Assembly (NCBI GenBank): GCA_963971535.1
Contig: OZ020587.1
Coordinates: 161,134,078 to 161,198,077 of the forward strand
Reading direction: 5' to 3'
Origin: Notolepis coatsorum
Lineage: Eukaryota > Chordata > Actinopteri > Aulopiformes > Paralepididae
Length of the DNA: 64,000 bases
Shown here: in pieces, positions 39,235 to 61,556 of the stretch
Layout: every line of letters starts with the position of its first letter
How positions within the stretch are numbered: the first letter of the stretch is position 1
Notes under the pieces: model-generated
Told to the model about the DNA's origin: nothing
The model's input: the letters and a program-made list of their open reading frames with translations, nothing else
Databases searched by the model: none
Made by a program: the position numbers and the translations under genes

Positions 39235-39282
39235 ATTTTTTTGTATTTTTTTTTGTATATTTTTTTTGTATTATTTTTTAAA
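39235..39282 (-). other. T-rich tract, possible 3' tail of minus-strand LINE
   Basis: T runs separated by GTA. If the Tx1/L1-like element (41833-48330) ends here, this is its A-rich tail and the Rex-Babar-like LINE is inserted within its 3' end. Inferred only. Confidence 0.35.
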
Positions 39283-39289
39283 CAAACAC

Positions 39290-40039
39290 ATAAACAAACA
39301 TGACAACACACGATTAGATATACAAGCATTGTTACCAGTGCACATCAAATTAAATCACCGTTTAGATAAATGTCTTATACAAGATATGCCCCTAATACCT
39401 GCTATCTATTCCCCTCACGTGTCACGTGAGACAAAGAAGTGGACCGACGAATCAGAGGCCACGCTCCAGGACGTGTTTACCGAAACGGATTGGGATATGT
39501 TCAAAGGAAGCGCCAGTGACGTCAGCGAGCTCGCAGACACAGTGGTGAGCTACATTACAACAATAGCCGATGGTATTGTCCCCAGAAAAACGGTGCGGAT
39601 TTTTCCAAACCAGAAACCGTGGGTGGATAGCACTATTAGAGCAGCTCTGAACTCTCGTACCACCGCCTACAACCTGGGTAGAGAGTCAGGAAACATGGAG
39701 GAGTATAAGGCTTCAGTCTATACTCTACGCAAGGCTGTCAAACTTGCTAAGAGGACATATGCTGACAAACTGGAGACACAAATGGCACAAAACGACACAA
39801 GAGGATTATGGCAGGGACTGAAGACAATAACTGACTATAAAGTCAGCGCCCCCTCAATGGGGAGCGACGACGCCTCCCTCGCGGACAAGCTCAACATCTT
39901 CTACGCTCGGTTTGGTGTAGACAGTGGCGCTGCTGGCTCTCCGGCTAGTGACGTCACTGGCGCGCCGGCTGTTGTGGAGGGGGGGGGGGGCAACCGCGGG
40001 GGGGCGGGGACGCTCTCTCGTTGTCGGAACACAGTGTGA
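39290..40039 (+). pseudogene. LINE linker region, frame 1
   Basis: Encodes RETKKWTDESEATLQDVFTE, PNQKPWVDSTIRAALNSR and the run KLNIFYARFG, the region between endonuclease and RT. The frame is lost at a G-rich stretch (39979-40010, two long G runs), probably by homopolymer slippage. RT continues in another frame from 40021. Confidence 0.8.
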
Positions 40040-41409
40040 GAAGAGCATTTATGCAGGTGAACACCAGGAAGGCTGCTGGCCAAGATGGCATAACAGGACG
40101 CATACTCAAGTCCTGTGCTAACAAGCTGGCCCCAGTGTTCACCGCCATATTTAATCAATCCCTGGCGGAGTCAGTGGTCCCTGCCTGCTTCAAGATGTCT
40201 ACCATCATCCCTGTACCGAAGAAACCCTCCCCAACATGTCCAAATGACTACAGACCGGTGGCACTCACCTCTGTGGTCATGAAATGTTTCGAGAGGCTGG
40301 TCAAGGACCACATTTGTGCCTCCCTCCCTAGTGATATGGACCCTATGCAATTTGCATACAGGACAAACAGGTCCACCGACGACGCGGTCTCCCAGGTACT
40401 GCACAGCACCCTCTCGCACCTTGACCGTCAGAAGGGGGGCTATGTGAGACTGTTGTTCATTGACTACAGCTCAGCGTTCAACACCATAGTCCCCACCAGA
40501 CTGGTGGACAAGCTGATCGAGCTAGGTCTGAGCTCCGCCCTGAGCGCCTGGGTACTGGACTTTCTGAGCGAAAGACCCCAGGCGGTCAGGGTGGGGGGTC
40601 AGACCTCCAACACCATCACCCTGAGCATCGGGTCCCCCCAGGGCTGTGTTCTGAGCCCCCTGCTGTACTCACTCTACACACACGACTGTGTGGCCAAGTT
40701 CAGCTCCAACTCCATAGTGAAGTTTGCAGACGACACGGTGGTGGTGGGGCTGATCTCGGACAACGACGAGAAGGCCTACCGGGAGGAGGTTGAGGTACTG
40801 GAACGCTGGTGCCAGGACAACAGCCTGCTCCTGAACATTGGTAAAACCAAGGAGCTGATCGTGGATTATAGGAGAGGACAGCAGGAGACGCACACACCAC
40901 TGATGATTAACGGGGCTACCGTGGACAGGGTGAGCAGCTTTAAGTACCTGGGGGTCCACATCTCAGAGGACCTGACATGGTCAACACACATAGACACAGT
41001 AGTAAAGAAGGCGAAACAGCGCCTCTACCACCTGAGACAGTTAAGGAAGTTCAGAGTATCGGGGAAGATACTCCAGTCCTTCTACTCAGGAGCTGTAGAG
41101 AGCATCCTGACCGGAAACATCACTGCCTGGTATGGAAACAGCACGGCACAGGACAAGAAGGCCCTACAGAGAGTGGTGCGCTCAGCCGAGCGTACCACGG
41201 GTATTGCACTACCCCCCCTGCAGGTTCTATACAACAAGAGGTGCAAATCCAGAGCCTGCAGGATAATGAAAGACCCTCACCACCCCAATAACAGCCTGTT
41301 TCAGCTGCTGAGGTCAGGCAGACGCCTGCGAACCCCAGCTACTAGGACAGAGCGGCTTAGGCTCAGCTTCTTCCCCCAGGCCATCAGAGCCATGAACAAT
41401 GAACATTGA
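40021..41409 (+). CDS. Reverse transcriptase of Rex-Babar-like LINE
   Basis: 462 residues from a TTG; probably not the native start, since the upstream frame was shifted. Motifs in order: [66 protein letters not shown] (catalytic Asp), [30 protein letters not shown] (FADD in place of YADD) and [15 protein letters not shown]. The C-terminal [15 protein letters not shown] and [17 protein letters not shown] follow. Complete to the natural stop. Confidence 0.88.
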   Translation: MSEHSVRRAFMQVNTRKAAGQDGITGRILKSCANKLAPVFTAIFNQSLAESVVPACFKMSTIIPVPKKPSPTCPNDYRPVALTSVVMKCFERLVKDHICASLPSDMDPMQFAYRTNRSTDDAVSQVLHSTLSHLDRQKGGYVRLLFIDYSSAFNTIVPTRLVDKLIELGLSSALSAWVLDFLSERPQAVRVGGQTSNTITLSIGSPQGCVLSPLLYSLYTHDCVAKFSSNSIVKFADDTVVVGLISDNDEKAYREEVEVLERWCQDNSLLLNIGKTKELIVDYRRGQQETHTPLMINGATVDRVSSFKYLGVHISEDLTWSTHIDTVVKKAKQRLYHLRQLRKFRVSGKILQSFYSGAVESILTGNITAWYGNSTAQDKKALQRVVRSAERTTGIALPPLQVLYNKRCKSRACRIMKDPHHPNNSLFQLLRSGRRLRTPATRTERLRLSFFPQAIRAMNNEH

Positions 41410-41949
41410 GTGCTCAGAACATTGAACTATCCACACACAAGCACACATGAACACACACACGACACGCACGCTGTGCACGCTCACACACGAGCAGCCACTT
41501 AACACTTTAACATGAGCGGGCACACACTCATGTCGCACACACGCACACTTATGGCCAAAGGAAAGGACACTTTAAATTAGAATAACAGGAACAGTGTATT
41601 GCACTACCAAAGCTAACTAGCATGTCCCATATGCTCTGTAAATAACTATGTACAGATACCGAGATGTCACTCCATGTTACCTGTTACCTGTTTACTGCAC
41701 AATGTTGTTTTTTCATTTTTTGATTCTATTATATGTTGTACCACTGTATTGCACATCGTTGCGGGCAAGACCACCCGCATTTCATTGTATACCTGTATGC
41801 CGTGACAATTAAAACTCTTGACTTGACTTGACTATGCTCTTGCTCGCACCCCCCACCCTGGAACCCCCAATGGATAATCCATCCATTATCATTCGCTCCT
41901 AACCAGACACTACCATTATATGCTAGCTTTTATTCTCTCCACCACTTCT

Positions 41950-42438
41950 TTATTTTTTATTGGTCTTTTTCCCCCTCCATTTTCCTCCGATTTTCTCCCA
42001 TCCCAATGTTAGTCGTATGCCAATTCCCAGTCCCTTCCTGGTCGCTGCGCTTTACCCCCCACAGTCAGATCATTTGGGAGAGTGGAGGCTACCACGTGCT
42101 TCCTCCGACACACGTCCAGCCAATCACCGCTTCTTTTCACCTGGCAGCGCGGATTCTCATTGAGAGGGCGTAGCGTGTGGGAGGACCACACTATCCCCCT
42201 CACGTCCAATCCGCGCTTAGCAGGCGCCCCGACCGAACTGTAGGAGTCGCTGTTTACAACGACCCGGACCCACCCCGCCAGCTTCTCCCACCCTCTGATA
42301 CAGCCAATTGTATCAGTGCAGACGGCCAGCCAAGCTGGTGACAACCCCGGAGCTGTGAGCTGGATTCGAACAGGCGAACCAAGCTCACAGCTCCGGGGCT
42401 GGTGACGAACGCAATCTCCGCTCGACCACCTAACCGCC
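41950..42438 (-). mobile_element. tRNA-headed SINE, copy 2
   Basis: Flanked by the 16-bp duplication TCTCTCCACCACTTCT (41934-41949 and 42439-42454), so it is inserted in the end of the Tx1/L1-like LINE. Minus-strand head GGTGGTCGAGCGG (box A) and GTTCGAATCC (box B, perfect consensus). The body matches 27561-28028. The head contains a perfect 17-bp stem, CCCCGGAGCTGTGAGCT with its complement (42345-42361, 42382-42398), enclosing box B. Confidence 0.9.
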
Positions 42439-44703
42439 TCTCTCCACCACTTCTAACCACATTGTCAATTTGGATTCATTGAGACCCAAAATTCTTGCTG
42501 TAGATATTTCTAGATAAATCACATTGAGATATGTAAGAATCCAGACCTTTCGGCACATTTTTTCCGGTTGAATCCATCGTGATGCTATCAGTTTTTTAGC
42601 CACTGTAATACCAGATAAAACCAATCTCTTTAGCTGTATAGGTACTGCATACTCAAAAACATCATTCAGCAGTAATACAGAGGGGTGTACAGGTATATTC
42701 AGAATTAAGAGATTTGATAATTGCTGGGTCACTTCTTTCCAGAATATCTTAACTGGTGGGCAGTCCCAGTACATGTGCATAAATGTCCCCTCGTCCCCAT
42801 TTGTACATAAGGAGCATTTGGAGTCTTGTTTAAGACCCATTCTGTTCAGTCTTATAGGAGTCAAGTATGTCCTATGAATATAGTTAAGATTGATTTGTTG
42901 ATGGTCCGGGTTCCTTGATGCAAGTCGAACATTTGCCCAGGCTTCTTGCCAATCAAAATCTTTTTCCAGGTCTGGTATATCCCCCCTCCAAATAGAGTCT
43001 AGGTGGAGGGTTTCATACGAGGCCGTTAGTAATTGATGATAAAAATCTGATACAAAACCTCTCGATGTCTCTCTTTCATAGAAAAACTTGTGGTATCTGT
43101 GGTGTGCAATTGGTATCCTTAATGGAACACCGTGAGCCTTCAAACATAACAATAATTGTGCGTAAAAATAATATGTGGAACCGGTGAGATTAAATTTTTT
43201 TTCTATTTCATCATAACTACAAATACCCTGTTTGTTGAAAACATCTCCTAATGTATGTATGCCTTGCTTTTCCCATCTAGGGAATCTTATAGGTCGTTTT
43301 CCAATCAGGAGTGCATTGTTATTGAATAAGGGAGTATGATTATGCCATTTATGTGGGTTAGAATATTTTTTTTGTGTTTCACGCCATATCCGGATCGCAT
43401 GAGTAATTATGGGGCCAAATTTCAGTTCGCATTGCTTAATTGATAATTTGGTGTATACTATGTCCTGCAGTCTCTGTGGTGCTACTATATTTACTTCTAA
43501 ATTTCTCCAGGATACTGATGCTTGGGGTTCAAACCAGGTTGTCAGTGGTCTTAAAGTGTACGCCTTAAAATAGTGGAAACATTTTGGAAATGCCATCCCT
43601 CCGTCGGCTTTGTTTCTCTGTGCAGTGGATCTTTTTATACGTGGTGGTTTGTTATTCCAAATAAATTTATATGAGGAAGAGTGTAATTTTTTCCAGTAAC
43701 CATCTGGAGGGGGTAACGGAAGCATTGAGCTGATTAAGTTGATTCTAGGTAAGACATCCATCTTAACTATTGAAACCCGTGCCTGTACTGAGTTTTTAAG
43801 TTTTGACCTGTCAAAGTCGTATTTGATTTTATTTTGGATTTCTATGTAATTGTGTTTCACCGTTTGGCTTATGGTAGGGAATACTTCAACTCCCAAACAT
43901 CTAAAGTGTTTAACCATTGGTATTTCTTCTGGAAGACTTGTATTTTTTGCAGGGGCGTTCAGTGGAAGGAAAGCCGACTTTGGCCAGTTTATCTTAAATC
44001 CCGATAGGTCGCCAAAGTCATTAATCAACTTGAGAAGATGAGGCATTGCGGTGTTAGGGTTTTGCATGAACAGTATTACGTCGTCCGCATATAGACAAAT
44101 TTTGTGTTGTGTGCCCTTGATTACGATTGGTTCTATGAGTTGGGATTGTCTTATATATTGTGCTAAAGGTTCTAGTGATAAATCGAATAGTCCGGGACTA
44201 AGAGGGCAACCCTGTCTAGAAGAGCGTGATACCGGAAATATTCCGGAGGTGATTATACCTGTTGTAATCATGGCCGATGGGTCTTTGTATAATACTTTAA
44301 TCATATCAATGAATCCTTTTCCTAACCCCATCCTTTCTAATGCTGCCCATAGATACGACCATTCCAGCCTATCAAAAGCTTTAATTGCATCCAGGGACAG
44401 CATCGCCTTAGGTGTGGTGTCGTCCTTGCTGGCATCTAGTACGTATAGTAATCGTCTTATGTTGTCAGTGATCAAACGGTTTCTTATGAAGCCAGTTTTA
44501 TCCAGATGAACTAAAGACATCATATGCTTTTGAAGTCTGATGGCTAATACCTTAGAGAACAGTTTGATATCGGTTCCGAGGAGGCTTAAGGGTCTATAAC
44601 TACCGCACTCGGTGGGGTCTTTGTCTTTTTTAAGGAGGACTGTTATGAGTGCAATATTGTCGTTCTTATGAAAGTTCCCCTCCTTGACTGAGTATAAAAT
44701 CAT
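42430..44703 (-). pseudogene. LINE ORF2, reverse transcriptase half
   Basis: 757 residues in the same frame as the endonuclease half (44731-46179), separated only by a TAG at 44731-44733. RT motifs: ALITVLLKKDKDPTECGSYR, PLSLLGTDIKLFSKVLA, GFIRNRLITDNIRR, LSLDAIKAFDRLEW (usual Glu after Ala replaced by Ile), SRQGCPLSPGLFDLSLEPL, ICLYADDVILF. A C-terminal Cys/His-type segment (CSLCTNGDEGTFMHMYWDCP) is present. The last residues before the stop run into the SINE junction. Apart from the nonsense codon it looks conserved. Confidence 0.88.
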
Positions 44704-44730
44704 ATTAAGTAATAGGGGTCCAATTATGTC

Positions 44731-46179
44731 CTAGCATGAGAGGTACATTTCTGGTGGGATACCGTCTCTTCCAGGAGCCCTACCACTTTGCATTTCGGAT
44801 ATGGCCTTTCTGAGTTCCTCTTGTGTGATTGGTGTTTCTAACTGTTTAGCATCATCCTCTGAAAGTTTGGGGAGGTTAATTTGATTAAGATATGTGTCCA
44901 TTTTGTTTTGATCGAAGGTCGTTTCTGATTTATACAAGTTGGAGTAGAATTCTTTGAATGTCGCGTTTATTTCTTTGGTGTCTGTTACAAGTCCTTGTTG
45001 TGCTTTAATGGAAGTTATATCTGCAAATTTTGCGTTAACTCTTAATCGCGTAGCTAGTAGGTGACTTGGTTTGGAACCTTGAGAGTAATGCTGTTGTCTT
45101 GTGCTACGTATTTGTACTTCAGATTGTTGTTTGTAAATGGCGTTAATCTCTATTTTTAGTAAATTAACTTGAGATTCCAGTCGAACCGAGTCGTTATATT
45201 GTAAAGAAGTAAATAATGTAGAGTAAAGCGTTTCTAGTTCCGCCAGTTTTGAGCATCGATTCTTGCATATTTTGGATGAAAAGCTATCAGTGAAATCCTT
45301 GATCATTCCCTTTACCGACATCCATAATATTCTAGGGTCCGGCACCGAGTTCACATTCTCTGGTAGGAATACTGAAAGAGCTTCTTTGAGTTGTGTAATG
45401 AATTCCTTGTTATTCAGCAGTGTCATGTTAAAGCGCCATCTTGGGGCTCGGGATGATAGTACACCAAATGATCCTTTTAGGAGTAAATAACAGTGATCTG
45501 ATAATGCATTGGGTACCATCTCCACTTCATAGTTATCAAATAGTCTCTGTGTTGCGAAAACATAATCTATTCTGGAGAGTGTTTTATGTCTTGCTGATCG
45601 ACAAGAGTACTTCCGGGTCGTTGGGTTGAGTGATCGCCATAGATCATTTACACCTGTATTCTTTGCCCAATCCTTTAACGCATTAGATGACTTTTTTTGT
45701 TCGTTGGAAAAGTTGGGATAAGATTTATCCAACCCAGGGTCCCAAATGGCATTAAAATCCGCACCAATTATAAATGAGTATTCTGGAAGGTCTAACATTT
45801 CCCTAGTTAGTGCAGTGTAGAAATTAGTTTCGTATAGATTTGGGGCATATACCGCTACCAACGCTATTTTCCTATTCTTGTGTATAATCTTAGCTATGGT
45901 TATCCGACCATCTGCATCAGACCATACTCCCTTCAATTCAATATTCAATGTCCGTTTCACGACTATAGCAACTCCACAGGTTCTCGTTCCAAAGGAAGAG
46001 TGACTAATGTTATGGTATGTGTTGTCCGCTAACGTAGCTTCGTCTCCCACTAAAATGTGCGTTTCGCTTAAGAGAGCCACATCAACCTGTTTGTTTTTCA
46101 TCAATGTGAGCACGCTTTTGCGTTTATGTTGATTATTTATTCCCCCAGTGTTCCAGATCATTATATTCAAACTAGCCAT
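44731..46179 (-). pseudogene. LINE ORF2, endonuclease half
   Basis: 482 residues. APE-type endonuclease motifs: IMIWNTGGINN, LLSETHI, VAVYAPN, IIGADFNAIWDPGLD, SRIDYVFAT and ALSDHCYLLL. The N-6 domain and start of the RT palm end at SGRAPGRDGIPPEMYLSC, then TAG. It nicks target DNA at the start of target-primed reverse transcription. The single stop means the full ORF2 of about 1250 residues was disabled recently, or needs readthrough. Confidence 0.88.
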
Positions 46180-47185
46180 AATCTATACATATTGACTTGT
46201 ATTTGTTGGTAATATTTCTGGAGTGCGAATTCACAATGGATTTACATCCCACTGTTGAGGTCCCGATGAGAGCCGAGCATAAAAACATACATATATACAA
46301 AAAAAAACCTGATCCCTCCTCCCTTACAGAGTCATACAAGGTACCTATTTGATACCTCCTTCGCGTACAACTTCTTCCTTTCCTGCACCTCCGGTCTGCC
46401 CAGAATGAGCAATTTATCCTAAGCTTTCCTATGTATACCATAGGATCTATACTTTTAATTCTAATTTAATAGAATGTCACCTGTGACCAAGCCTCTCTCC
46501 CGTTAATGTAATTATAACAGAATGAAAATTATACCTAAATTTTTTAAACCTTCTATTAACATTTATTGGTTACAACATTTCAGAATAAAGAAATAAAGAA
46601 TAAGAAATAATGATGTTTAGAATTAGATATCGAAAACCCATATAATCCGGGAATATCTACTTAAATTTTTTTTTTAAATACCTTTGCATGTTTACACATC
46701 TAAACGACAAGGAGATTTTTAAATACTTGTATGCAGATCGTCCCCTGTCATGCGTGATCATTAATCTGTTATGGTGGTCGTTGTTCTTCACGTCTATTTC
46801 ATGACCAAGTCTCATATCGTTGTTGTTTCACGGGGCCATCATTGAAAAAGGTATTGTATTCCAGAGTGCTGTCAGCTGCTCGTGACTTGCAGATTGATGT
46901 TTTAATGTTCCAGTACATTCTTCGTGCCTTAGAACAATAACAATCCAGTGTATTCCAGAATATTCCGTTATGACTCATAGCCTTCAAGTAAGAAAAATAG
47001 AATAGAAAATTCTAGAATGTTCCAAAATGGTCGGTATCAAATCATGATCTGCATATTACCATGAATATATATGGTGTTTAGCGTTTTATATCAAATTACT
47101 TATTTCTCAATGTTGTCAAAAGCTTGTATGTTGCCGTTTTTGATGTCGATGCAATTGTAGAGTTATCCATGAAAGATGAATCTTG

Positions 47186-48198
47186 TCATCCACTTTTTAT
47201 ATTCTTCACGTAATCTTCTGCCGCCTCAAGCGAACGTAGCACAAATCTCTTTCCTTCTCCCTCAACTATGGAAAGAATAGCTGGATACCGTAAGACGGGG
47301 TGGAGACCTTTCTCATATAGCCGGAGTACTACACCCTTGTAGTGGGCCTGCAGAGTTATGGCTTCCTTGCACATGTCTTCATAAAACCACACTTTTTTTC
47401 CCTTTGTACATCAGTTTTCCCCATTTCTTGCGTGATTCCCTGATAATCGTGTCTCTTGTTGCAGTTTCCCGTAGACTAGCAATTATCACTCTTTCCTTGT
47501 TGTTGTTGTTGTTGTAGTTTTCAGTTCCAATTCTGTAGCGTTTGTCCACTATCTTCTGTAGATAGGATTTCAGAACCTAGGATTTCGACTAGCACTGCAG
47601 CAAACTTGTCATCTGTGCAGTTGACTGATTCATCCAAACCCACTATACGGAGGTTAAATCTGCGGGCGTGCCGTTCTATTTCTAGCAGATGGATCAAGTT
47701 TTCCTCCTTGTTGTCATGGATCATCTGCCGGAGCTGTTTGTTTTCCAGTTGCATTTCCTTCGATACTTCAGCGATAGTTTCAAATAGTTCCTTATTCTTC
47801 TCATCTTGTTTCCGTGAGTATTCGATCCCAGTATTTGCAACCGCCGTTATGCGATCGGATTGTGCTACAACCTGTGTCTTGATTTCTTCAAGTTTAGCCT
47901 CTATGGCTATCTTAAATGCGGTAGCATTAGTCTCGGCTCTTTCCACAGCTTTAGCAATATCATTAACCTTGTCGGTTAAGATCTTCATCATAGCTGTCAT
48001 CAGCGTTTTGAAGTCGGGTGACATACTCTCCATGACTGTCTCGGCTGAGGTCGTCGGAGTATTGGAATCCATGCGATTGTCGGGCTTTTTGTTCTCAGTA
48101 GCGTCTGCTTTTCCTTTCACTGTGGAACGTGTCACCGCGCCGTCTACCGTTGGAGAATCTGCTTCACGGCTTTTTGAGTTATCTTTCTTTGCTGGCAT
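47186..48198 (-). pseudogene. LINE ORF1 (RNA-binding protein), frameshifted
   Basis: Starts MPAKKDNSKSREADSPTVDG. A heptad-rich coiled coil occupies residues about 60-190, then RRFNLRIVGLDES, the start of the RRM. Frame is lost near 47555-47570 (the sequence KIVDKRYRIGTE follows in another frame) and again at an A run near 47393-47400. The C-terminal domain (VWFYEDMCKEAI to VLRSLEAAEDYVK) lies in the frame ending 47186. L1-type ORF1 proteins form trimers that coat LINE RNA. Inactive. Confidence 0.85.
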
Positions 48199-48334
48199 GC
48201 TGCGTTTTACTTTGATATAGTTAGTTGAAGGTCTTAGTTAATATATACGTCGAGGTTTAAACACATTAGTGTTGTATAAAGTAGGTTTTTAAGCGAAATT
48301 AACAAAAATTGGAGCGGAGCTTGTGACAGATGCG

Positions 48335-50724
48335 ACTGTCACATACTGTCGTCAAACCGGAAGTCCTTTGCGATCTTCTTTGAGGAAAAAGTGGAGAACA
48401 TCCGCAGCTCCTTCTCCCAACCCCCACCCATTCCAAACACTGAATCGAGAACCTCATCCTTCACTCTGTCATCTTTCTCTCCCATTACAGAAGCCGAGAC
48501 CCTGACACTGGTAACGTTGAACCGTCCGACTACATTCCAGCTGGACCGGCTACCCTCCCCACTCCTCCAGACCATAGCACCGGACATCCTCCCATTCCTA
48601 ACTGCAACCATCAACTCCTCACTCAACCCTAAAACAAGCCAGAGTCACGCCCCTCATAAAAAAAACCAACCCTGAACCCCACCGTCATAGGCAACTATCG
48701 TCCTGTCTCTCTTCTCTCCTTCCTTTCTAAAACACTTGAATGTGCTGTATCTAGAGCTGCCGCGGTATCGGTATTACCGCGGTATCGCTGTTACATCATG
48801 CCCACCGCAGCGTTGGGCTGAATACCGGCATCACCGCTGTTTTTTATTATATTATCATTATTATTACGCTCTCGTTGGGCTTGCGGCTCTGCAGATATAC
48901 CCTACTTCTCTGTCGAGATTCCAAGCGACCCTATTGGGTACCAGAAAAGTCACATGAAACACTGCAGACCACTGATTGGTCAGAAGAGATACGCGTCACA
49001 TGCTTGGAGCATCTTGCAGTGCGTTTACTTCCTGAATCTCAGCCATCACAACACGGCTAATAGTACGTTAGCTCCCACCGGAGACCGGAGTGGATTACCG
49101 ACGCCGTCGCTCCTCAGGGAACGAGGCATAATGATTATACTGCAACGAAATGTTATAATAAAAGCCCTTTGTTCTATACACTTGTCTGATTGAAAACTTT
49201 ATTAACAGACCGCAGAATGGGTACAACTCGGCACGCTCTGAGCAAAGAAAGGAACTTAGATATTAATTGAGTAACGCTTGCCTTGCTATGTGGTCCGGTA
49301 AATACGAACGTGTAACTATACTAACGTTAATGCCACAAATCGAATACCTTTGTAATCATAAGTAGTAACGTTATAATAATAATAAGAAGAAAGGGTCGGG
49401 GGGGTAACCGGTGGGCGCGACACCGAGGGGAGACTTCGAATCCGTGTTTCACTTTTAATAACGAATGCGTGCATGCCGAATCCCAAACAATATCCATGCT
49501 GCAAAGTCATCCTCTAAAGATAGACATTTAGACTAGAGGCAGGCTATATGCTATATAAAGAGTAGACTACAAAAAAAATGCATTCAAACTTTTTTTTTTG
49601 TGTGTGTGTGCGGTAATACCGCGGCGGTAGGAAATATTTTGCAAATGTGTGCGGTAAGGAAAACAGCAATACCGCGGCAGCTCTAGCTGTATCCAACCAA
49701 CTTACTGCTTATCTCTTACAGAATGACCTCCTAGACCCCAATCAGTCTGGCTTCCGTACTGGCCACTCCACAGAAACGGCCCTCATTGCGGTCACAGAGG
49801 CACTTCACTTAGCAAAAGCGAAAGGCCTCTCCTCTGTCCTGATTCTCCTAGATCTATCTGCAGCCTTCGACACAGTCAACCATCAGATCCTCCTCGCGGC
49901 CCTTGCAGGAATGGGAGTGGCTGGATCTGCGCTGACATGGCTGACATCATACCTCAACGACCGCTCCTACCAAGTGTCATGGAGAGGGACCCTGTCGGCC
50001 ACCCGCCCCCTGCGGACGGGTGTCCCCAAGGGCTCGGTCCTAGGACCCCTTCTCTTCTCCCTCTACACTAAATCACTGGGTAAAATTATCACGTCTCATG
50101 GCTTCTTATCATTGTTATGCCGATGATACTCAACTCTTCCTCTCCTTCCCTCCCTCAGATATCCACGTCTCTGAGCGGATCTCGGCCTGTCTGTCCGACA
50201 TCTCCGCCTGGATGATGACCAACCACCTCAAACTGAACCTAAGCAAAACAGAATTGCTCCACCTGCCGGCCAAATCCTCCCCCCTGAACTTCTCTGCTCA
50301 CATCGCAGCAACAACCAGAACCTGCAGATTCCTCCTGAGAAACGTCAGAAGGATCCGCCCCTTCCTGACAAAAGAAGCCACCCAACTCCTCGTCCAATCA
50401 ACAGTCATCTCCCGCCTCGACTACTGCAACGCACTGCTAGCTGGCCTCCCGGCCACTGCCACCAAGCTTCTTCAACTCATTCAAAACGCAGTGGCCCGCC
50501 TGATCTCAAACCTACCGAAGTCGGCCCATGTCACCCTGCACTGGCTCCCCATTGCTGCACGTATCCGCTTCAAGGCCCTCGACCTAGCATACCGTGCGGA
50601 AAAGGGAACCGCTCCAGCCTACCTCCGGTCAATGGTCTCTAACTACACACCCTCAAGACCCCTACGCTATGCATCTTCTGGCTGCCTCAGACCTACTCCT
50701 ATCCTAGGACTAATAGGAACCCAA
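48335..50724 (+). mobile_element. L2-like LINE body, split by hAT element
   Basis: Parts 48335-48751 and 49694-50724. It encodes SFAIFFEEKVENIRSSF, then after frameshifts NYRPVSLLSFLSKTLECAVS. After the hAT element come QNDLLDPNQSGFRTGHSTET, LLDLSAAFDTVNH, GVPKGSVLGPLLFSLY, CYADDTQLF and SRLDYCNALLAGLPATATKL. It stops abruptly at a LINE insertion near 50725 and its C-terminus and tail resume at about 51986-52365. Confidence 0.82.
48752..49685. mobile_element. hAT element with CCGCGGTATT ends
   Basis: 934 bp with 17-bp inverted ends TAGAGCTGCCGCGGTAT, flanked by the perfect 8-bp duplication GCTGTATC (48744-48751 and 49686-49693). Subterminal repeats are TACCGCGGTAT. No transposase. It interrupts the RT of the L2-like LINE. 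Confidence 0.93.
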
Positions 50725-50736
50725 GGAGGACAATAA
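49647..50736 (+). pseudogene. L2-like reverse transcriptase remnant
   Basis: Two overlapping frames, 49694-50100 and 50098-50736. They cover the fingers through palm, including the Asp of LDLSAAFDTV and YADD, and the thumb. The frame changes at about 50100 (GFLSLLC versus SYHCYADD). The last residues (GLIGTQGGQ) are read into the inserted LINE tail. Confidence 0.82.
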
Positions 50737-51985
50737 CACTACCTGATGCATACTGCACCTTATGTGACACTGTGAATACTGTGAATATATATATATATAT
50801 ATTTCAGTTAGTTAGATAGTTAATTATATTGACCAATTTGTTTACACTGCTGTGTTGGTTTTTACTACCTGTACCCCCCCTCCTTCCCCCATGCTCAGTA
50901 TATTTTTACTGTATTTATTTACTGTATATTTTATTTCATTTTTATTCTATTTTACTCTACTCTTATCCTAGGCAACTTGATTTGATTTGTGTTATTATTC
51001 TAATTCGTGACCTGTCCTGTCCAGTGGCGGCGGGAGGGAGGGGCTAGCAGGGGCTTAAGCCCCCTCTGAAAAAGGCTTAGCCCCCTCTAAGCCCCCCCTC
51101 CCAGTTATGTTTTTTATTTTATTTATATATAAAAATACATTACGAATTCCGTTATATTGGACATTTGTGTCTTTGTGAAGCTGTATATACTATTCATCAT
51201 ATCTATGGCTGTCACTATAGCCAATTGAAATGCTAGAAATGGTCACGTGGACTGGGAGAACCAATGGAATTTCTCTTTCACTTCCGCGTTTGGGATGCCG
51301 TCCCAAAACAAACGTCTTTGGATAACTTCTTTGGGAAATACCATGAGCCAGAAGAGGAGACTACGACCTATAAAGCTTCTTTCAAATAAGAAGAAGAAGA
51401 AGGAGTCATACTTAACTTTGACATTGGCTTTTGGAGGACCGAAACGATAATAAGCAACCGGTGACTCTCGCGTGTTGACATGACAACCCGTAGCCCCTTT
51501 CGTGACTGTGATGCACCGAGTGAATCCACAGTCACTTGCTCCTCAATAGGAAACCAACCTAGATTCACCATGAAGGACTGGTTCTGGCCGAACCGTTCGT
51601 TATACAAGTATCACAGAGAACGTTTTGGAGGACCGAAGCTAAAACAATAATAAGCAGGGCAGTGCTGCCTGCATTATGGTGAGTGTTGTGTTTTAATAAT
51701 AATAATACATTCGATGTATAATACACCCGCTGTTACAGCACACACACACACACAGACACACACACACTGGAATGTCGGGTCGCTGTGCAAATTTTAATGT
51801 CGGGTCGCCTGTGCCCATTATAATTCATTAGCACCTGCTATAAACAATCCAGCCCCCGCAGAGCTCCCGCAATGCCAATTCTCTGGCGCCGCTGCTGGTC
51901 CTGTCTAAATGTTTAAATGTTTAAATGTTGAGCGATTTGCAGTGTCAAATTTCCCACGGGATAATAAACGTATTTCTATTCTATT
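50725..51985 (+). mobile_element. LINE 3'-end insertion, itself split by a hAT element
   Basis: 50740-51021 and 51906-51985 form a LINE 3' untranslated end, with GTGAATATATATATATAT, T/A-rich sequence and the tail GGGATAATAAACGTATTTC plus (TATTC)n. It is placed inside the C-terminal coding region of the L2-like LINE. No ORF remains. Confidence 0.65.
51022..51897. mobile_element. hAT element, CAGTGGCGGCG ends
   Basis: 876 bp flanked by the perfect 8-bp duplication GTCCTGTC (51014-51021 and 51898-51905). Ends CAGTGGCGGCGGG and inverse CAGCAGCGGCGCC match partly. A remnant frame (51247-51450) is too short and unlike transposase to call. CA repeats at 51739-51766. Confidence 0.85.
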
Positions 51986-52365
51986 CTATTCTAAGCTCCG
52001 GGAGGGTCATCAAAGAGCCGCCTATTCTCAGTCCTTGCCCCACAATGGTGGAATGAACTACCCACCCCAGTTAGGACAGCCGAATCCCGTCCAATATTTC
52101 GCCGTCGACTAAAGACGCACTTCTTCAACCATTATCTGAAATAATAAAAGAATTAAATAAAAAATCTAACCCTAACTAACCTTACTGTCATGCACTTGTC
52201 CTAATAAACTAACCTACACTGTAACACGCAACACTTTGATGAATATTGTTACTCAGCTGATAGAGTTGTACCCTTCCTGATGACCTGTCGTACAGAACTT
52301 GTAAGTCGCTTTGGATAAAAGCGTCAGCTAAATGACTAAATGTAAATGTAAATGTAAACCAGAAC
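51986..52365 (+). mobile_element. C-terminus and 3' tail of L2-like LINE
   Basis: In frame it reads SVLAPQWWNELPTPVRTAES and FRRRLKTHFFNHYL, the usual end of this LINE protein, followed by GTAAGTCGCTTTGGATAAAAG and the (AAATGTA)n tail. It is most simply the end of the LINE interrupted at about 50724. Confidence 0.8.
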
Positions 52366-52616
52366 GATTTGGGCTTATTGCATATAACTACTGTAATAAA
52401 CTACAAACTAGAAATAGTGTCTGTCAAATGAGCCATACTATTGTCTCCATAGCTATAATATAGAATATACAATAGCTCCGCAAAGATCGTGAAATATCGT
52501 GAAAATGGTCAAGAAAAGCTGGCGCTAGACAGTAAAGGATGGGGGAAAATACAGAAAGCCCAAAAATAAATAGAATAAAAAATAAAGGTTTGAACCCTTG
52601 CACCCAGCAGTAATTA
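52366..52616. other. Short intron remnant
   Basis: AT-rich, nothing recognised. Confidence 0.4.
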
Positions 52617-54139
52617 AGTTTCAAGTTCAAGTTTTCAAGTTTCTTTAATAGTTGTCATACAGAAGTACAGAATACTTTTATACAAAATGCTTCTTACTGT
52701 TACGCTCCAGAGAGCAAGACAAGATAAGTATGAAATAAAATAACATAGTATAGCATGTAAATTAGAAGTAAAAAAATGAGGTCACAGTGTTCAGTATAGA
52801 CATATGTACAATGTTCGATGCAGAATAGACGTAACTGAGTTACCATATAATATACAATACTATGCAGTGTACTAATATACAATACTACAATACTATATAG
52901 TGCAAGGCAGAAATGGGATGAGGTGCAATTTAGGTACAATTTACAGTAGGTGTACGAGTTGTAGTGCAAATCCTTTATCAATAAATATAAAGTGTGTTTG
53001 TGTGATCTAAAGTGTGGAGAGTGGGGGCTGCAGTGTGTTGTTTGTTTAAGTGAGTGTGTGCGTGTGGGTGTGTGTGCTGTGTGCATTTGATGGTTGTTGC
53101 ATAGTGTTTATTGTTCGTTTAGCAGCCTGATGGCCTGGGGATAGAAGCTTCTTCTGAGTCTTTCTGTGCTCGCCTTAAGACTCCGGTATCGCTTGCCTGA
53201 CCGCAGCAGTTAAAAGAGGCAGTTGTTCGGGTGGCTCGAGTCCTTAATAATTATCTTAGCCTTCCCCCTGCACCGCTTGTTGTAAATGTTCTGGAGGGTG
53301 GGAAGCCCCCCTCCAATTGTGCGTTCGGCTGAACGTGTCACTCTTTGTAGTCTGCTACGGTCTTGTGCAGTGCTATTCCCAAACCAGGAGGTGATGTTGC
53401 CAGTCAGGATGCTCTCTATTGTACATGAGTAGAAGTTCCTAAGGATCTTCTGACTGACTTGGAACTTACTTAGGCGCCTGAGGAAGTAGAGGCGTTGTCG
53501 TGCCTTCTTCACAACACTGTCAATGTGTGTGGTCCATGTCAAATCCTCGGATATGTGGGCTCCGAGGTACTTGAAACTGTTCACTCTCTCAACCGGTGCC
53601 CCGTCGATGCTGAGGGGGCTGTAGTCCTTGACCCCCGACCTCCTGAAGTCCACAATCATCTCTTTTGTTTTGCTGACGTTCAGGGAGAGGCAGTTCTCCT
53701 GACACCACTGTGACAGATTCTCTACCTCTTCCAGGTAGGCCCTCTCGTCGTTGGCAGAGATCAGGCCCACCACTACTGTGTCATCAGCAAATTTGATGAT
53801 TGTGTTGTTGTTCCGCTGTGCTACGCAGTCATGTGTGTACAGGGAGTAGAGGAGGGGGCTCAGAACACAGCCCTGGGGGGCCCCTATGTTGAGCGTGATG
53901 GATGAGGAGGTGCAGTTGCCTGCTCTTACCACCTGGGGTCTGCCCGTCAGGAAGTCCAAGACCCACTGGCAGAGGTCATAGTTCAAGCCCAGGTCCCTGA
54001 GCTTGGCTATGAGTTTGGAGGGGACTATGGTATTGAATGCTGAGCTGTAGTCGATGAACAGCATTCTCACATAGTTCCCCTGCCTCTTGTCCAGGTGTGA
54101 TGCTGCTGTGTGCATTAGCACACAGCACACTATACACAT
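52617..54139 (-). mobile_element. Rex-Babar-like LINE, 5'-truncated, minus strand
   Basis: Plus-strand left end AAGTTTCAAGTTCAAGTTTTC is the reverse complement of a (CTTGAA)n-type LINE tail. A 3' untranslated region of about 500 bp follows, then the C-terminal and palm half of RT. Truncated near 54139, where a palindromic element starts. Confidence 0.87.
53210..54139 (-). pseudogene. Reverse transcriptase, partial (Rex-Babar-like)
   Basis: 309 codons. The native part begins [20 protein letters not shown] (Asp) with [18 protein letters not shown], followed by [33 protein letters not shown] and [17 protein letters not shown]. It ends [15 protein letters not shown] and has a premature end near 53210. 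The N-terminal fingers and endonuclease are missing. About as close in motif spelling to 40021-41409 as sister families are. Confidence 0.87.
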
Positions 54140-54145
54140 TAACGT

Positions 54146-54433
54146 TAGGTTATGACTATAACCAAGTTCTGTGAATTAGGGGTGACGCTTGGCATCACTA
54201 CTGCACTTCCTCGCGTACGTGCACGCGCACTGAATAAATTCCACAAATGTACCTTTAATACCAGTATTAGTCTGACCACACCCCTCATCAGCTTACCTTC
54301 ATAAGCAGGTGTGTGGTCACCTGCTCTCCTCCTTCCCAAGCTTTCACCACAAGGTGAGGTCAAGGGCTGCAGCGGCCGTCTGATGCCAAGCGTCACCCCT
54401 AATTCACAGAACTTGGTTATAGTCATAACCTAA
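54146..54433. mobile_element. Small palindromic element, 53-bp inverted ends
   Basis: 288 bp. TTAGGTTATGACTATAACC..AAGTTCTGTGAATTAGGGG..GCTTGGCATCA is repeated in inverse at 54381-54433. The interior (from ACTTCCTCGCGTACGTGCAC to TTTCACCACAAGG) is the same as the right end of the 5.2-kb element at 59407-59555, in inverse. Confidence 0.75.
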
Positions 54434-54965
54434 TGTTCTGTTTCATTAGGGGCTCTGCTTGGCATCACTACTGCACAAGGGGAGGCCAAGCGGAGCCGCT
54501 GGCTGACAAATACACCCCGCTGACAGCCCCCCAAAACCATCAGAACAGGGAGGGCCGAGCCCCCCCGACCCCCCCTAATGGAGGGTATCCCCCCTATTAG
54601 GGGCTTCACGGGAAGGCGACGGACCCGACCGTGCGAAGAGGCACTCAAGCAACTCAACGCACAGGGTGAGCAGACCGTGGCTTGACCCCACGACTACACA
54701 CACGCACAACCCGCATGCCACCCGGGAACGAACGGAGGAACAACCTCGTTACTTCCCCCAGAATCACGGGGTCAAGGGCAAAAACCCAACCCCGTGGCAA
54801 GGCCGTAGCAGCGGAGCGCGAAGGAAGACCCAGACCCACCAAAAGGACTGGACTCCCTGGAACGGGGGCCCGGAGAAGTCCATGATGCCAGCATCAAGAC
54901 CCCACCAGGTGGGCACGTAGTGCCCCGCCCCCCACATCGCCAGCGTATTCGGACAAAGGCCCCTC

Positions 54966-55083
54966 AGTTACTGCACCTGGTATTCCCAGGCGGTATCCCA
55001 ACCAAGTACTAACCAGGCCAGAACCTGCTTAGCTTCCGAGATCGGACGAGATCAGGCGTGTTCAGGTCGGTACGGCCGTAAGC
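54966..55083 (-). ncRNA. 5S rRNA-like sequence 1
   Basis: Minus strand begins GCTTACGGCCGTACCGACCT and matches eukaryotic 5S rRNA to its last bases: GATCTCGTCCGATCTCGGAA, AGCTAAGCAGGTTC (box A) and TGGTTAGTACTTGGTTGGG, CCGCCTGGGAATACC (box C). Deviations such as GGGATACC for GGGAGACC, and no T run directly downstream, mark it as a dispersed 5S pseudogene or pol III promoter module and not a standard tandem 5S gene. Confidence 0.85.
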
Positions 55084-55747
55084 CGAGCGGGCCCTGTCCC
55101 CCCAATAGTACACCGCCTGGCACACTGACCCTGCAGAACAGACAGTCAGCATGGCCGTAAGCACACAAAAAAGGTTAACCAACGGAAGCAGGCAGCGCAC
55201 CGGGGAAAAACCAGGCAACAGGCTGTTAACCCTAGCCTGGAGACTGCGGACGAGACAGGCGCCAGAGGGGACAGCTGAACACAGCTGCCCCGGCGGAAGG
55301 GGCGTATGCTGGCGTCGTTGCATGACCAAGCCTCCATTTAAAAACCCCCACCCAGAGGGGTTGAGGCAGAGAAGGCTGACACGATTGGCAGACGTCATGA
55401 ACGTGCAGGGGCACCCTCAACCGGGTAACCCGAGAGTTGACACTGCTCCAACACACCAGGGAATCAACCACCTTGGTGTTACCCAATGCGGTGGTTGTTC
55501 CTATAACCCCTCAAGAAAAAACTCCAAAACACACCTGCGGGTATACACCGGCTATACCGCAGTACAAGTGTCTCAGTTCCCAAAAAAAGGTTAACCCAGG
55601 CCTACGGGTCGACGAACATTACCTCGGACCGGGCCTGGCGATACGGGAAGCACAGGGTCACCAGAGGAGGTCAAAGACCACCCCCAACAGGCCCCTCTTC
55701 GCCATGCGTGAGAGAGGAGCGAAAAATAATGGAGAACCAGCCCCTAA

Positions 55748-55863
55748 GCACACCGTACTTGGTATTCCCAGGCGGTCTCCCAACCAAGTACTAACCAGGA
55801 CCAACCTGTGTAGCGGCCGAGATCCGACGAGATCGAGCGTGTACAGGTTGGCATGGCCGTAAG
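55748..55863 (-). ncRNA. 5S rRNA-like sequence 2
   Basis: Minus strand begins GCTTACGGCCATGCCAACCT. GATCTCGTCGGATCTCGG and a complete box C (GTACTTGGTTGGGAGACCGC) are kept, but box A is altered (GGCCGCTACACAGGTTGG). A T5 run lies about 30 nt downstream (near 55720). It is more diverged than copy 1 and in the same orientation, about 780 bp away. Likely not a functional ribosomal gene. Confidence 0.8.
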
Positions 55864-58800
55864 CCATTACGACAGTGCTGAGTAAAAACGTACCCAACCA
55901 GGGTCTCCATAGCGCTTAACCCTGTGACACCCGGACCGACCTGGCATTTTTCCCCCTGAAAAAAGCCCAAGTCCCTCAGGGTACCAGAACAGCAGATCTG
56001 CATCCCCGGCGGACAACGGGTTCAACTGATCTGGTCCAGCGTGACCAGAACCAGTCCCGTGCCCTAACCACGCCGACATGCCAACTCCAGGAGAAAGGGC
56101 AGATATGCGTGTCGATCTTAACATGAAAAAGAAGGCGCCACCCAGACGTTCGGCCGAACCGCGCCTGGTGGCCCACCCCAAGGGCGTGAGACCCCTCTAC
56201 ATATGTTCAGATCCATTCCGTCATCATCCCCCAGACATGAACGAGAATCCGTCGAAAAACCAACCCAGGTCGTGGGATTTGGTCGTCGGAAGAGGAAAAA
56301 CCCCCATCTCAGTTGCTTTATAAAAACGCTGTTTCAACCACAAGCAACCAAGGCGTGCCAGTCAGTCGCCTGTTTACAGCGAGCTAGCACTATACGTGCG
56401 TCGGGACACACCCCCATCAATGAACAGGCTATTTAGACCTGTCATTGAATCCCCAAGGCGCCCAGGGGAACGACAAGAGGGGTGTGACACTCCCTAACTC
56501 CAAAACTTTTTGAATAGAAAAGAAGGAAGCATCAACAGTATGTATCCCAGTCTACACAGCCAGGGGTAAAAATTGTTCACATTTTTACATCCCACCACCC
56601 TCCCATAGGAAGGAGACGGGGATCCCCAGAGAGACTTCCCACGCGAGCTGTACAGATTGAAAAGAATATATTGCACCTTGAGCCATGTAAAAAATTGGTT
56701 TTAGGGCTCTCCGGGGAAGAGGCACTGAACCCATACACACTCAATAATCGAAATGAATCGAATACATACACAATAGAATAGGACCCTTCTAGAGGGTCCA
56801 CTCACTTTGACAATCTGAGGAGGAAGGCTCTGTACTCTGATGGAGGCTCCCTCACATGGAAGAAGGAGTCCGAACTCACAGAAGGCCCGAATAGGCGCTT
56901 GGTGAGGAGGAGCCCTGACCACCCCCCTGAAACAGAGCCATCACATGGACCTGAACAGCACACGGAAGTCCTACCAACAGAGACGCGCACGGTGACGTAC
57001 TCTATGGCGGGGGAATTCCTGCGGTGCACACGCCCAATATACCAGGCCGTGGGACCAGGAAACTCCCTCCCCCCCCCCCCCCGTAACGTGCCGAACCGCC
57101 ACGTGACGTGAACCTTGAAGGACAGGGGGTGTACCCCTGACCGACAGAAACAAGGGGGAGAGGAAAGGTTACCAGTTCACCCCTTTACGACCCCACACCC
57201 ATGATACGATGTAATGACAAAAAGAGAATATGACACAGTCATAGTCAGCTCCATGAAGCGTTTGACAGCTCCACACAGCGCATGAGCTAACCTGCTATCT
57301 GATTTTTACTAAGGAAAAACACAGAATAGAGAGGGCTCTAAGAGCCCCGGTCCAACATACACATGTGCTTCTGTGGCCAGTCCAACCCAGTTGTAGGTCA
57401 CATGACACACACAACCCATCATCACCTACAAAAAATGGCAAAAAACACTCAACAGAGGAACGCCGTTTTTCACAATGAGAGAATACATCATTCTCGATTA
57501 GTATCGGCCACAGGCCTTGCTAAGCACACACGACAGCGACCAAACAATCTTTTCGTTTAGGAAAATAAAGTTTCTCCAGCAGTTTTAGCACAACCTCAGC
57601 AATCAAGCTAAGGGTTACATCGCATCCCTACCACACAAAAGACACAAATAGTGCACAAACATGTCTGATAGGAGGATGAAAAAGTCCCCAGGGAACCGGG
57701 GGGAAACACAATCCTCTTATTTTACCCTCAATACGGCCAGTTAAAAACAGGAAACCCTGTTAATATGTGAACACACTGTTCATTGTCATCACAGGCTGAG
57801 AAAAGAACATTCTTTCACTCACTTGTCACCAAGCATAGCTTCATAGGTTAGTTACCTTAGTTGTGAGTACACGGTACATATAAACACCATGATGTTTCTC
57901 ACACAACAACCAGATCATTACATCCCGATTTGCACGGAGAAGCTAACTGCCAGTGACAAAAACAGCTCACACATAACCCGCGCCGTATCCCAAATGCATT
58001 GCAGCAACACACGTTTTGGAAAAAAACATCGTTATTCACAATACATTTAGAAAAGTAAAACCAGAAGACCCGGAACGTAGATCACCGAAGTGCAGTCACA
58101 GACACCGTAGGAACACAGCCGCTCCTGTGTTGTTCGAACTGGGCAGCGTCACCGCTCCAACCCGCACTACAGTCCTTTGTTGATGCAACCTTGCCGTCCT
58201 GGCTCAGGGCAGGGTCGACGAAACATCCCCTGTCAAGGATGACGTCGTAGTCAAGAGTGTAAAACATGTTAAAATCAAAGCACGTTCAACAGAATAGCAT
58301 CAAGCTAACGGCCGCTCCAACCGTTCGGGTGCTACTGCTCCTGCTCGCGAGACGCCGAGCTAACGACGCACGCGACCAGAAGCGAGCTCACGGCGGCGCG
58401 CGAGAAGCTAAGCTACCCCGCGCCAGGCCATGGCCTATAGCAGCAAGCTAACGTTACCTAGCGATCACGACATGCTAGCACCGCAGCAACAGCTGACTGG
58501 CTAACAGTAGGCCCAACCTGAGCAGGCCATGCAGCGATCCCAGCAGGCTAACGCAGCAGTTAACAGCTGACTGGCTAACCGTAAGCTAAGCAGCTATCAA
58601 CTGAACCTGTAAACAATGACATAACACTCACCCAGACAGGCCGCCGTTCTGAACCTCTCCTCACTTTTTAAGAGAAAAGAGAAAACAAGATGTCAACACC
58701 GCTTCACAACGGTGATTTTACCAACACCCGACGGAATCAGCACAATACCAACTGGCCTGTGTAGCTGACTATGAACATGGATCTGCCGCTATCGCACATC

Positions 58801-59600
58801 CATGCACATATCCCCTCGTGAAGGAATACTCTCATTTGGATATGAAAGATGGGGCCTTAACACGGTGACAGAGAGAATCCACTCGTCCAAAACACACAGG
58901 GATCACCAGTGTTAATGGTCGCGGCCCACTAGTTAAAACTATAATGGTCTTCAGACCAAGGCCTTCTGTCACCTAGGTGGCTGAACAAAGGACCCTAGCC
59001 TGGGGCCGGTTTCCATAAACATTGTCAAGTAGCCCCCATAGCACTAACAGACAAGTGGAGCCTGCCAGCAAACACTACTCACCCAACCTGGAACGCACCG
59101 CTTCTCACAACAGCGGCATGTCCGACAGTTCAGCTGTGGCCTGACATGTTTCACCCCAACAAACACAGCAAGGAACTGCAGTTGAGAAGCATGCAGCGGC
59201 GTGCTCCCAATACGAAAACCGGTGGAGGGTTTTTAGAATGATCATCATCTTCTAGACACTCCAGTACGAAGACAATATCGCCGTATTTTCTCGAAAATAG
59301 TGAGAGAGAAAATAAAGATATGATGTCAACGTATCTCCTTCCTTGTAAACAACATTTTTCTCCACGTCAACTAACAACACGTCAAGTGGGGTACTACCGA
59401 GGCACTTCCTTGTGGTGAAAGCGAGAAGGAGGAGAGCAGGTGACCACACACCTGCTTATGAAGGTAAGCTGATGAGGGGTGTGGTCAGACTAATACTGGT
59501 ATTAAAGGTACATTTGTGGAATTTATTCAGTGCGCGTGCACGTACGCGAGGAAGTGCAGTAGTGATGCCAAGCAGAGCCCCTAATGAAACAGAACATTAG

Positions 59601-60047
59601 CTACATATCTCTTGTCGTGGAATTAACACAACATTATGCATACTTTTGACAATAAATTAAATAAGAATTTGTTCTTACTTGCTTGCCTGGGTAAATAAAG
59701 GTAAAATAAATAATAATAATAATTTAAAAAAATAATACTTTCTTTTTCTTTTTAAACAGATACCGATAATTTCCGATATTACGTTTTAATGCCAATATCG
59801 GACATCCCTATCTGTAACCATTTCACTATCACACCACCAAAATGGTTAACCCTTTCACTGCAACAATACAGAAGGGGTTAACCCTTTCACTGCCACACGA
59901 CAAAGGGGTTAACCCTTTCACTGCCACACGACAAAGGGGTGTTAACCCTTTCACTATCACACTACTGACGGTTAACCGTTGGTCTGTTGGTAGGTAGTGT
60001 GATAGTAAAGGGTTAACCTCCTGTAGTGTGGCAGTGAAAGGGTGTAA
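59601..60047. repeat. DNA-transposon remnants and 30-bp repeats
   Basis: 59605-59815 holds AATTTGTTCTTACTTGCTTG..GGGTAAATAAAGG and a CCGATAATTTCCGATATTACG segment like degenerate hAT ends. 59820-60040 consists of about six copies of GGTTAACCCTTTCACTGCCA in both orientations. Confidence 0.6.
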
Positions 60048-61402
60048 ATAAAGGTCTCAAGGCCCCTCTCACCCAGCAGCGTCTGTAAATAAAGGTATCG
60101 AGGCCCCTCTCTCACCCAGCAGCGTCTGTAAATAAAGGTATCGAGGCCCCTCTCTCACCCAGCAGCGTCTGTAAATAAAGGTATCGAGGCCCCTCTCTCA
60201 CCCAGCAGCGTCTGTAAATAAAGGTATCGAGGCCCCTCTCTCACCCAGCAGCGTCTGTAAATAAAGGTATCGAGGCCCCTCTCTCACCCAGCAGCGTCTG
60301 TAAATAAAGGTATCGAGGCCCCTCTCTCACCCAGCAGCGTCTGTAAATAAAGGTATCGAGGCCCCTCTCACCCAGCAGCGTCTGTAAATAAAGGTCTCGA
60401 GGCCCCTCTCTCACCCAGCAGCGTCTGTAAATAAAGGTCTTGAGGCCCCTCTCACCCAGCAGCGTCTGTAAATAAAGGTATCGAGGCCCCTCTCACCCAG
60501 CAGCGTCTGTAAATAAAGGTCTCGAGGCCCCTCTCACCCAGCAGCGTCTGTAAATAAAGGTCTTGAGGCCCCTCTCACCCAGCAGCGTCTGTAAATAAAG
60601 GTCTCGAGGCCCCTCTCACCCAGCAGCGTCTGTAAATAAAGGTCTCGAGGCCCCTCTCACCCAGCAGCGTCTGTAAATAAAGGTATCGAGGCCCCTCTCT
60701 CACCCAGCAGCGTCTGTAAATAAAGGTATCGAGGCCCCTCTCTCACCCAGCAGCGTCTGTAAATAAAGGTCTTGAGGCCCCTCTCACCCAGCAGCGTCTG
60801 TAAATAAAGGTATCGAGGCCCCTCTCACCCAGCAGCGTCTGTAAATAAAGGTCTCGAGGCCCCTCTCACCCAGCAGCGTCTGTAAATAAAGGTCTTGAGG
60901 CCCCTCTCACCCAGCAGCGTCTGTAAATAAAGGTCTCGAGGCCCCTCTCACCCAGCAGCGTCTGTAAATAAAGGTCTCGAGGCCCCTCTCACCCAGCAGC
61001 GTCTGTAAATAAAGGTCTCGAGGCCCCTCTCACCCAGCAGCGTCTGTAAATAAAGGTCTTGAGGCCTCTCTCACCCAGCAGCGTCTGTAAATAAAGGTCT
61101 CGAGGCCCCTCTCACCCAGCAGCGTCTGTAAATAAAGGTCTCGAGGCCCCTCTCACCCAGCAGCGTCTGTAAATAAAGGTCTCGAGGCCCCTCTCACCCA
61201 GCCGCGTCTGTAAATAAAGGTCTTGAGGCCCCTCTCACCCAGCAGCGTCTGTAAATAAAGGTCTCGAGGTCCCTCTCACCCAGCAGCGTCTGTAAATAAA
61301 GGTCTTGAGGCCCCTCTCACCCAGCAGCGTCTGTAAATAAAGGTCTCGAGGTCCCTCTCACCCAGCAGCGTCTGTAAATAAAGGTCTTGAGGCCCCTCTC
61401 AC
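60048..61402 (-). repeat. Minisatellite made of myosin exon end, donor and acceptor-like sequence
   Basis: About 32 units of 41 bp (43 bp when CTCTCTC replaces CTCTC). On the minus strand each reads CAGACGCTGCTGG, then GTGAGAGGGGCCTC, then GAGACCTTTATTTA. The first 13 bases are the last 13 of the exon at 61403-61556 and the next are its 5' splice site. Because the unit ends in a pyrimidine-rich TTTATTTA and the next begins with CAG, every unit also forms an acceptor-like TTTATTTACAG 10 nt before the next donor. The array opens the 23.8-kb intron. Confidence 0.95.
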
Positions 61403-61556
61403 CCAGCAGCGTCTGCTCCGTGGCCTGGGGGAAGCGGCTCTCCTCGTCCATCAGGGACAGCAGGCCCATGGGCTTCTGCAGGAACATGTCCAGGATGGGC
61501 CGGTTGTCCTCGTACTCCACCAGGCCGGCGTCCACGCCCTCACTCTGGTACTCGAT
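61403..61556 (-). CDS. myo3: Class III myosin exon ([14 protein letters not shown] segment)
   Basis: 154 bp, 51 codons plus one base: [51 protein letters not shown]. This is the lower 50-kDa part of the motor near the relay region; KPMGLLSL and [10 protein letters not shown] are strongly class III-like. Acceptor: minus TGTGATGGTCAG at 61557. Donor: CTGCTGG then GTGAGAGG at 61402. The leftover G joins AT of the next exon to give Asp (DKFEDN). Upstream exons are not in the window. Confidence 0.94.

Follow-up and report, generated by a model that had tools for sequence, protein, structure and literature searches.

To our knowledge, donor-spanning VNTRs are known only from a few human genes. One of these is IFI6 (6-16/G1P3), whose minisatellite has a 12-nt unit in 26 copies, so that extra units would stay in frame, unlike those of the fish arrays described here. 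The IFI6 minisatellite supplies multiple splice donors, and two of its downstream repeat units are used (PMC4526556, citing Turri et al. 1995). In ABCA7, a 25-bp VNTR (~12-427 units) directly adjoins exon 18, whose donor it contains; the donor situated one unit downstream is used, with a retention of 2 +/- 1% that is unchanged by array length, and skipping of exon 19 increases with VNTR length (PMC5954066). The 31-bp VNTR of CBS, c.1444_1467+7(16_21), lies at the exon 13/intron 13 boundary, and enzyme activity is reported to be lower in the presence of more units (PMC2630376, PMC5188458). Given the donor-spanning repeats of these three genes, the statement made in a first-pass annotation of the present locus (i.e. 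that no described class of such repeats exists) was wrong.

Here, we analyse a 64-kb window (the whole stretch of fish DNA under study) that holds three exons of a myosin III gene and two tandem arrays, A and C (Table 1), each of which starts at an exon end with its canonical donor and carries a usable-looking donor in every unit (except for the final copy of array C, which is devoid of a donor). As in ABCA7, the arrays start at an exon end, the canonical donor is included and repeated in each unit, and the unit is not a multiple of 3, so that its retention breaks the frame; the ABCA7 unit differs in that it begins at the GT and is intronic (PMC5954066), and it is not known to have acceptor-like ends. 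With CBS they share a unit that crosses the exon-intron boundary (by its name, 24 exon and 7 intron bases, in 16-21 polymorphic units), although the CBS unit is shorter, is present in fewer copies, belongs to another gene, and its sequence is termed non-coding in one of the sources (PMC5188458). Tandem genomic duplication of AGGT segments is a described route of intron gain (PMC3443670), and array C resembles its products in being a tandem exon copy in which AG|GT could serve as both donor and acceptor; in that route a new intron appears inside an exon, whereas the fish arrays multiply an existing junction and show no new intron. The units of array C, which read ...CAG|GTGAG, may also be set beside recursive zero-length-exon sites; the latter reside inside long introns and have RNA support (PMC5126111), while the fish units are exon-adjacent and would be candidates at most. 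What is new here is the occurrence of two arrays in one gene and of units that combine an acceptor with a donor.

The myosin III gene and its surroundings

Exons A, B and C together match the Pfam family Myosin_head (PF00063, E 6.8e-31), and the top named protein match is a myosin-IIIb of Tachysurus (91% identity over 124 aa). Both agree with the first-pass annotation, which had assigned the gene to myosin III; its 23.8-kb intron is likewise borne out by the distance measured between exons A and B (Table 1). The 3' end of exon A reads ...GAGCAGACGCTGCTGG|GTGAGAGG and that of exon C ...CTGACCAAGACAG|GTGAGAAC (both on the minus strand). Generic motor probes recovered no further myosin exons to the left of 35.7 kb in the 64-kb window, so the remaining exons either lie outside it or were missed, and a single generic motor probe applied upstream of exon A gave no notable match.

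Table 1. Exons, intron and tandem arrays of the myosin III locus (positions within the 64-kb window).
Feature	Position	Strand	Size or units	Description
Exon A	61403..61556	-	154 nt	IEYQSEGV...TEQTLL; phase 1 end at CTGG|GTGAG
Array A	60043-61415	-	33 tandem units of 41/43 nt	TRF period 41, 33.0 copies
Intron A	37637..61402	-	23,766 nt	begins with array A; of the scanned ORFs, four inside it have retroelement domains
Exon B	37548..37636	-	89 nt	ends ...YAGK; donor AAG|GTATCT outside any array
Intron B array	36687-37195	-	31 nt x 16.7	unit holds GGACAGGTTTAG (GGACAG|GTTTAG)
Exon C	36490..36619	-	130 nt	VLYNVNG...PLTKT; end ACAG|GTGAG
Array C	35779..36519	-	14 donor-bearing units	unit 1 = exon C end; TRF 35820-36519

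A Pfam scan of ten of the larger ORFs in the window found retroelement-type domains in eight and none in the other two. ORFs with RT or endonuclease domains are situated inside intron A (39952-46182 and 53213-54175), and a minus-strand element (16259-20622) has Pfam matches to gag, RT, RNase H, integrase and chromodomain; by this domain order we take it to be Gypsy-like. The window also contains a 200-N gap (2864-3063) and near-identical TRF rows (5700-7396 vs 9641-11473, as well as 10-1048 vs 3067-4048, the latter two flanking the gap). Such duplicated blocks may represent either a recent duplication or unmerged haplotypes.

Array A repeats the end of exon A together with its donor

Each unit of array A is composed of 13 nt from the end of exon A and 28-30 nt from the start of intron A, and the first unit overlaps the exon itself. 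Unit lengths amount to 41 nt in 24 cases (the last one measured to the array edge) and to 43 nt in nine. The motif CTGG|GTGAG is kept in 33/33 units, and so is CTGGGTGAG, while the 13 exon-derived bases are unchanged in all but one of the 33. The amplification of the donor and exon end that the first-pass annotation had described (about 32-fold, in 41-43-bp units carrying the last 13 exon bases) was thus confirmed by direct reading, by TRF and by splitting the array into units; its count becomes 33 donors once the true donor of exon A is included.

The junctions between units carry TTTATTTACAG / CCTTTATTTACAG without exception (32/32), placing an acceptor-like AG 31-33 nt downstream of the previous unit's donor and 10 nt ahead of the next GT. 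The proposed 10-nt micro-exons do have an acceptor-like AG and a donor as their bounds at every junction, but they would not work between adjacent units: a spacing of 31-33 nt is too short for an intron, and a micro-exon of array A could therefore join only non-adjacent units.

Eight columns of the unit alignment are variable, six of them in the middle block, one in the exon part and one in the donor-labelled block (at the edge of a 2-nt indel). This distribution could hint at a possible constraint on the splice motifs, and in that case it would count against an account in which the array is pure baggage. An exon origin for the intronic half of the unit was ruled out (its score is matched by 1407 of 2000 dinucleotide shuffles), and the absence of exon similarity in this half means that the unit is an exon end plus an intron start. 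The end of exon A taken together with the first units showed no special RNA structure (z 0.07; 97 of 200 shuffles fold equally well), and the exact array junction had 0 matches among prokaryote contigs and 0 among viral contigs, as expected of a fish gene.

A second donor-spanning array at exon C

Array C, which the first-pass annotation had overlooked, is a second donor-spanning array of the same gene. Beyond exon C it comprises 13 more donor-bearing units and a final copy without a donor, with a start-to-start spacing of 49, 52 or 63 nt (mostly 49 or 52 nt; 63 nt once). The downstream part of the unit derives from exon C itself (none of 2000 dinucleotide shuffles reaches its score), so that array C copies the final ~60 nt of this exon in tandem; a nearly complete exon C end is retained in the 63-nt unit, and the unit junctions restore CAG|GTGAG. 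The short word TGAGAAC is shared by the interior of exon C and the first bases of the following intron, and it is likely to have been the seed of the first duplication.

Of the three donors found in the window, two sit in arrays, for which the probability is 0.02-0.09 from array coverage alone and 0.0004-0.0015 for arrays of at least 100 nt that start inside exon ends; these values derive from a formula applied post hoc, and with n = 3 donors the coincidence is suggestive only.

Donor-like units as such are not peculiar to arrays A and C, since five arrays (out of all 53 TRF rows with a period of at least 20) reach a U1 pairing of -9.3 kcal/mol or better. The other three are a purine-rich array at 12516-13329 (periods 13/26/39 nt; its plus-strand GAG|GTGAGG pairs with U1 at -10.2) and an 89-nt unit in 2.9 copies that occurs in two places (6214-6468, 10155-10409) and holds TGG|GTGAGT on each strand (U1 -11.2 / -10.4), with no known exon at any of them and no gene found at the purine-rich array. 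The background amounts to 42 among 2000 chunks (41 nt each, scored for the plus strand alone). An exon end was not seen within the array of the short intron B (36687-37195).

The same junctions in relatives

Relatives were represented by 187 protein clusters (clustered at 90% identity, paralogues included; the best ones listed among 209, 145 and 38 hits), taken from a collection that holds ORFs running from the exons into the introns. Most of them are labelled lgn, which we took as assemblies of archived reads. Such assemblies tend to break at arrays of this kind, and array-bearing close relatives could therefore be missed in the cluster set.

The end of exon A was visible in 145 clusters (of the best 187 listed), 138 of which continue with G and seven of which are spliced; G is the residue expected if the codon is split by a G|GT donor as in the window. 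For the end of exon C, G comes next in 32 of 33 clusters (among the same best 187). A search for 15 words of the array peptides in these 187 listed best clusters returned a lone match (PPDQD, in P0112), which lies before the exon and is due to chance. One cluster (P0009) has exon B and C peptides identical to those of the window, followed after exon C by a different, non-array continuation, and another (P0154) runs into the intron after exon C as G-E-N, matching the window. The comparison of the same intron in relatives, put forward as a check in the first-pass annotation, thus placed the donor of the sampled clusters at the codon used in the window and detected none of the array peptides in them, which indicates that the splice junctions are old and that the arrays are not general.

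Intron A was read through in nine clusters (among the best 187 listed), where it measures 93-204 nt: in frame in five (132, 120, 204, 93 and 150 nt) and in the next frame in four (179, 155, 128 and 128 nt). The cluster with the 93-nt intron (P0013) resembles the paralogue type, and there are two less certain read-throughs in the third frame (~213 and 84 nt). As this detection is biased to short introns, it proves that they exist, not how frequent they are. The intron A of the window is more than 100 times longer than these read-through introns, its growth being explained in part by the reverse-transcriptase/endonuclease ORFs that it harbours. Judging from these comparisons, arrays A and C are lineage-specific and intron A has swollen since.

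In exon A, the final complete codon (61404-61406) is CTG (L) and is located inside the repeated unit of array A, while in the relatives (145 clusters from the best 187 listed) the corresponding residue is V in 133, I in 12 and L in none. L may have been there before array A or may owe its spread to the array.

Origin of the arrays and their likely effect on splicing

We reason that arrays A and C are probably two independent lineage-specific minisatellites, which began as duplications spanning a splice junction, expanded, and were tolerated with the first donor doing nearly all of the splicing. The endpoints of the duplications would have flanked a conserved exon-intron junction, separately for each array, and later growth to 33 and 14 donor units may have proceeded by slippage or unequal exchange. 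That the first unit of array A is the end of exon A supports the earlier proposal of a tandem duplication that started across the exon-intron border.

The donors of both arrays appear strong by U1 pairing energy (calculated with unmodified U1, and hence no predictor of splicing): all 33 donors of array A have -9.3 kcal/mol, a value that only 9 of 1500 other GT in intron A equal or surpass, and 12 of the 14 donors of array C have -11.1, the other two (-10.3 and -9.5) both still being AG|GT. The donor of exon B reaches only -5.8 kcal/mol. When the 33 donors of array A are used in turn to join exon A to exon B, the frame remains open for the first only. The exon-proximal donor, the sole one in array A to give an open reading frame, would accordingly carry out almost all of the splicing, and its being the productive one would account for the tolerance of the arrays; the first-pass annotation had arrived at the same view of tolerance through the first donor. 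In array C, donors 3-14 introduce a stop, and donor 2 is out of frame, yet stop-free within the exons of the window. Downstream donors, when used, would thus yield out-of-frame or stop-containing sequence that is probably removed by NMD, and the acceptor-like half of each unit would be mostly a by-product. At most, low mis-splicing may be expected, with a possible effect of array length on the next exon, as in human ABCA7.

An alternative that we regard as less likely is that the array is an expression rheostat whose length tunes the output of myosin III via a leak to NMD-bound transcripts or via skipping of exon B. It draws on human genes of like architecture, in which exon 19 skipping (ABCA7) and a reported loss of enzyme activity (CBS) go with length (PMC5954066, PMC2630376, PMC5188458), on the frameshift or stop that each of donors 2-33 of array A produces, and on the length of exon B (89 nt, no multiple of 3), whose skipping would break the frame. 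Unit retention in ABCA7 is itself constant across VNTR size, however (PMC5954066), and an effect is no proof of selection for it.

Recursive splicing, in which the units would act as stepping points (zero-length exons in array C and 10-nt micro-exons in array A), seems improbable to us. A step from unit to unit would leave 0 nt in array C (where AG directly precedes GT) and 10 nt in array A, and CAG|GTGAG of array C, preceded by a stretch that is only partly rich in pyrimidines (10/16), comes near to the recursive consensus (Y)nNCAG|GTAAGT (PMC5126111). The acceptors of array A have 11-12 pyrimidines out of 16, against a median of 8 in 722 other YAG of intron A (80 of which reach 11) and 8 in the acceptor of exon A, but the acceptors of exons B and C are richer (13/16). 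Moreover, the array occupies the extreme start of the intron, where no distance is saved, the 31-33 nt spacing would bar steps between neighbours, and for insertions of one to six 10-nt micro-exons the frame is open for three and six only. The short intron A of nine relatives (among the best 187 listed) weakens the case for an array that arose as an aid to the removal of a long intron, and with it the suggestion of the first-pass annotation that recursion through a very long intron was the reason for the array.

A wider reading is likewise improbable, in which exon-end capture recurs in the lineage, fields of acceptors plus donors are spliced through, the number of units sets myosin III output, and the coding end of the exon is altered. 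If true, splicing would proceed by zero-length steps in array C and by 10-nt micro-exons taken three at a time in array A, and changes in array A would pass back to the exon's coding end (e.g., L vs V/I).

It is decidedly unlikely that the 33 donors serve as a landing pad that recruits U1 snRNP and shields a retroelement-bearing intron from early polyadenylation. The suppression of polyadenylation by U1 is an established pathway (PMC3826338), and the array would concentrate sites of a pairing strength that is scarce in the rest of intron A (see above), but all 33 of them are confined to the initial 1.4 kb of the 23.8-kb intron. An assembly artefact (a wrong unit number or a false array) is the hardest to believe. 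The 200-N gap and the near-identical TRF rows (5700-7396, 9641-11473) hint at a possibly imperfect assembly elsewhere, but arrays A and C are gapless and have graded variants, with local clustering of the variant types in array A, all of which is seen in real minisatellites, and other genomes do have donor-spanning arrays.

Significance of the arrays

As two minisatellites that probably arose by separate junction-spanning duplications, arrays A and C extend the donor-spanning VNTRs to a fish sensory myosin, with two of them in a single gene. The 33 near-identical donors that array A presents in cis constitute a natural experiment on how the spliceosome chooses among equal 5' splice sites. Tandem repeats attain an unusual density in Atlantic cod (PMC5241972). 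If exon ends were often captured in fish genomes rich in repeats, gene output would vary by a route that is hardly visible to short reads.
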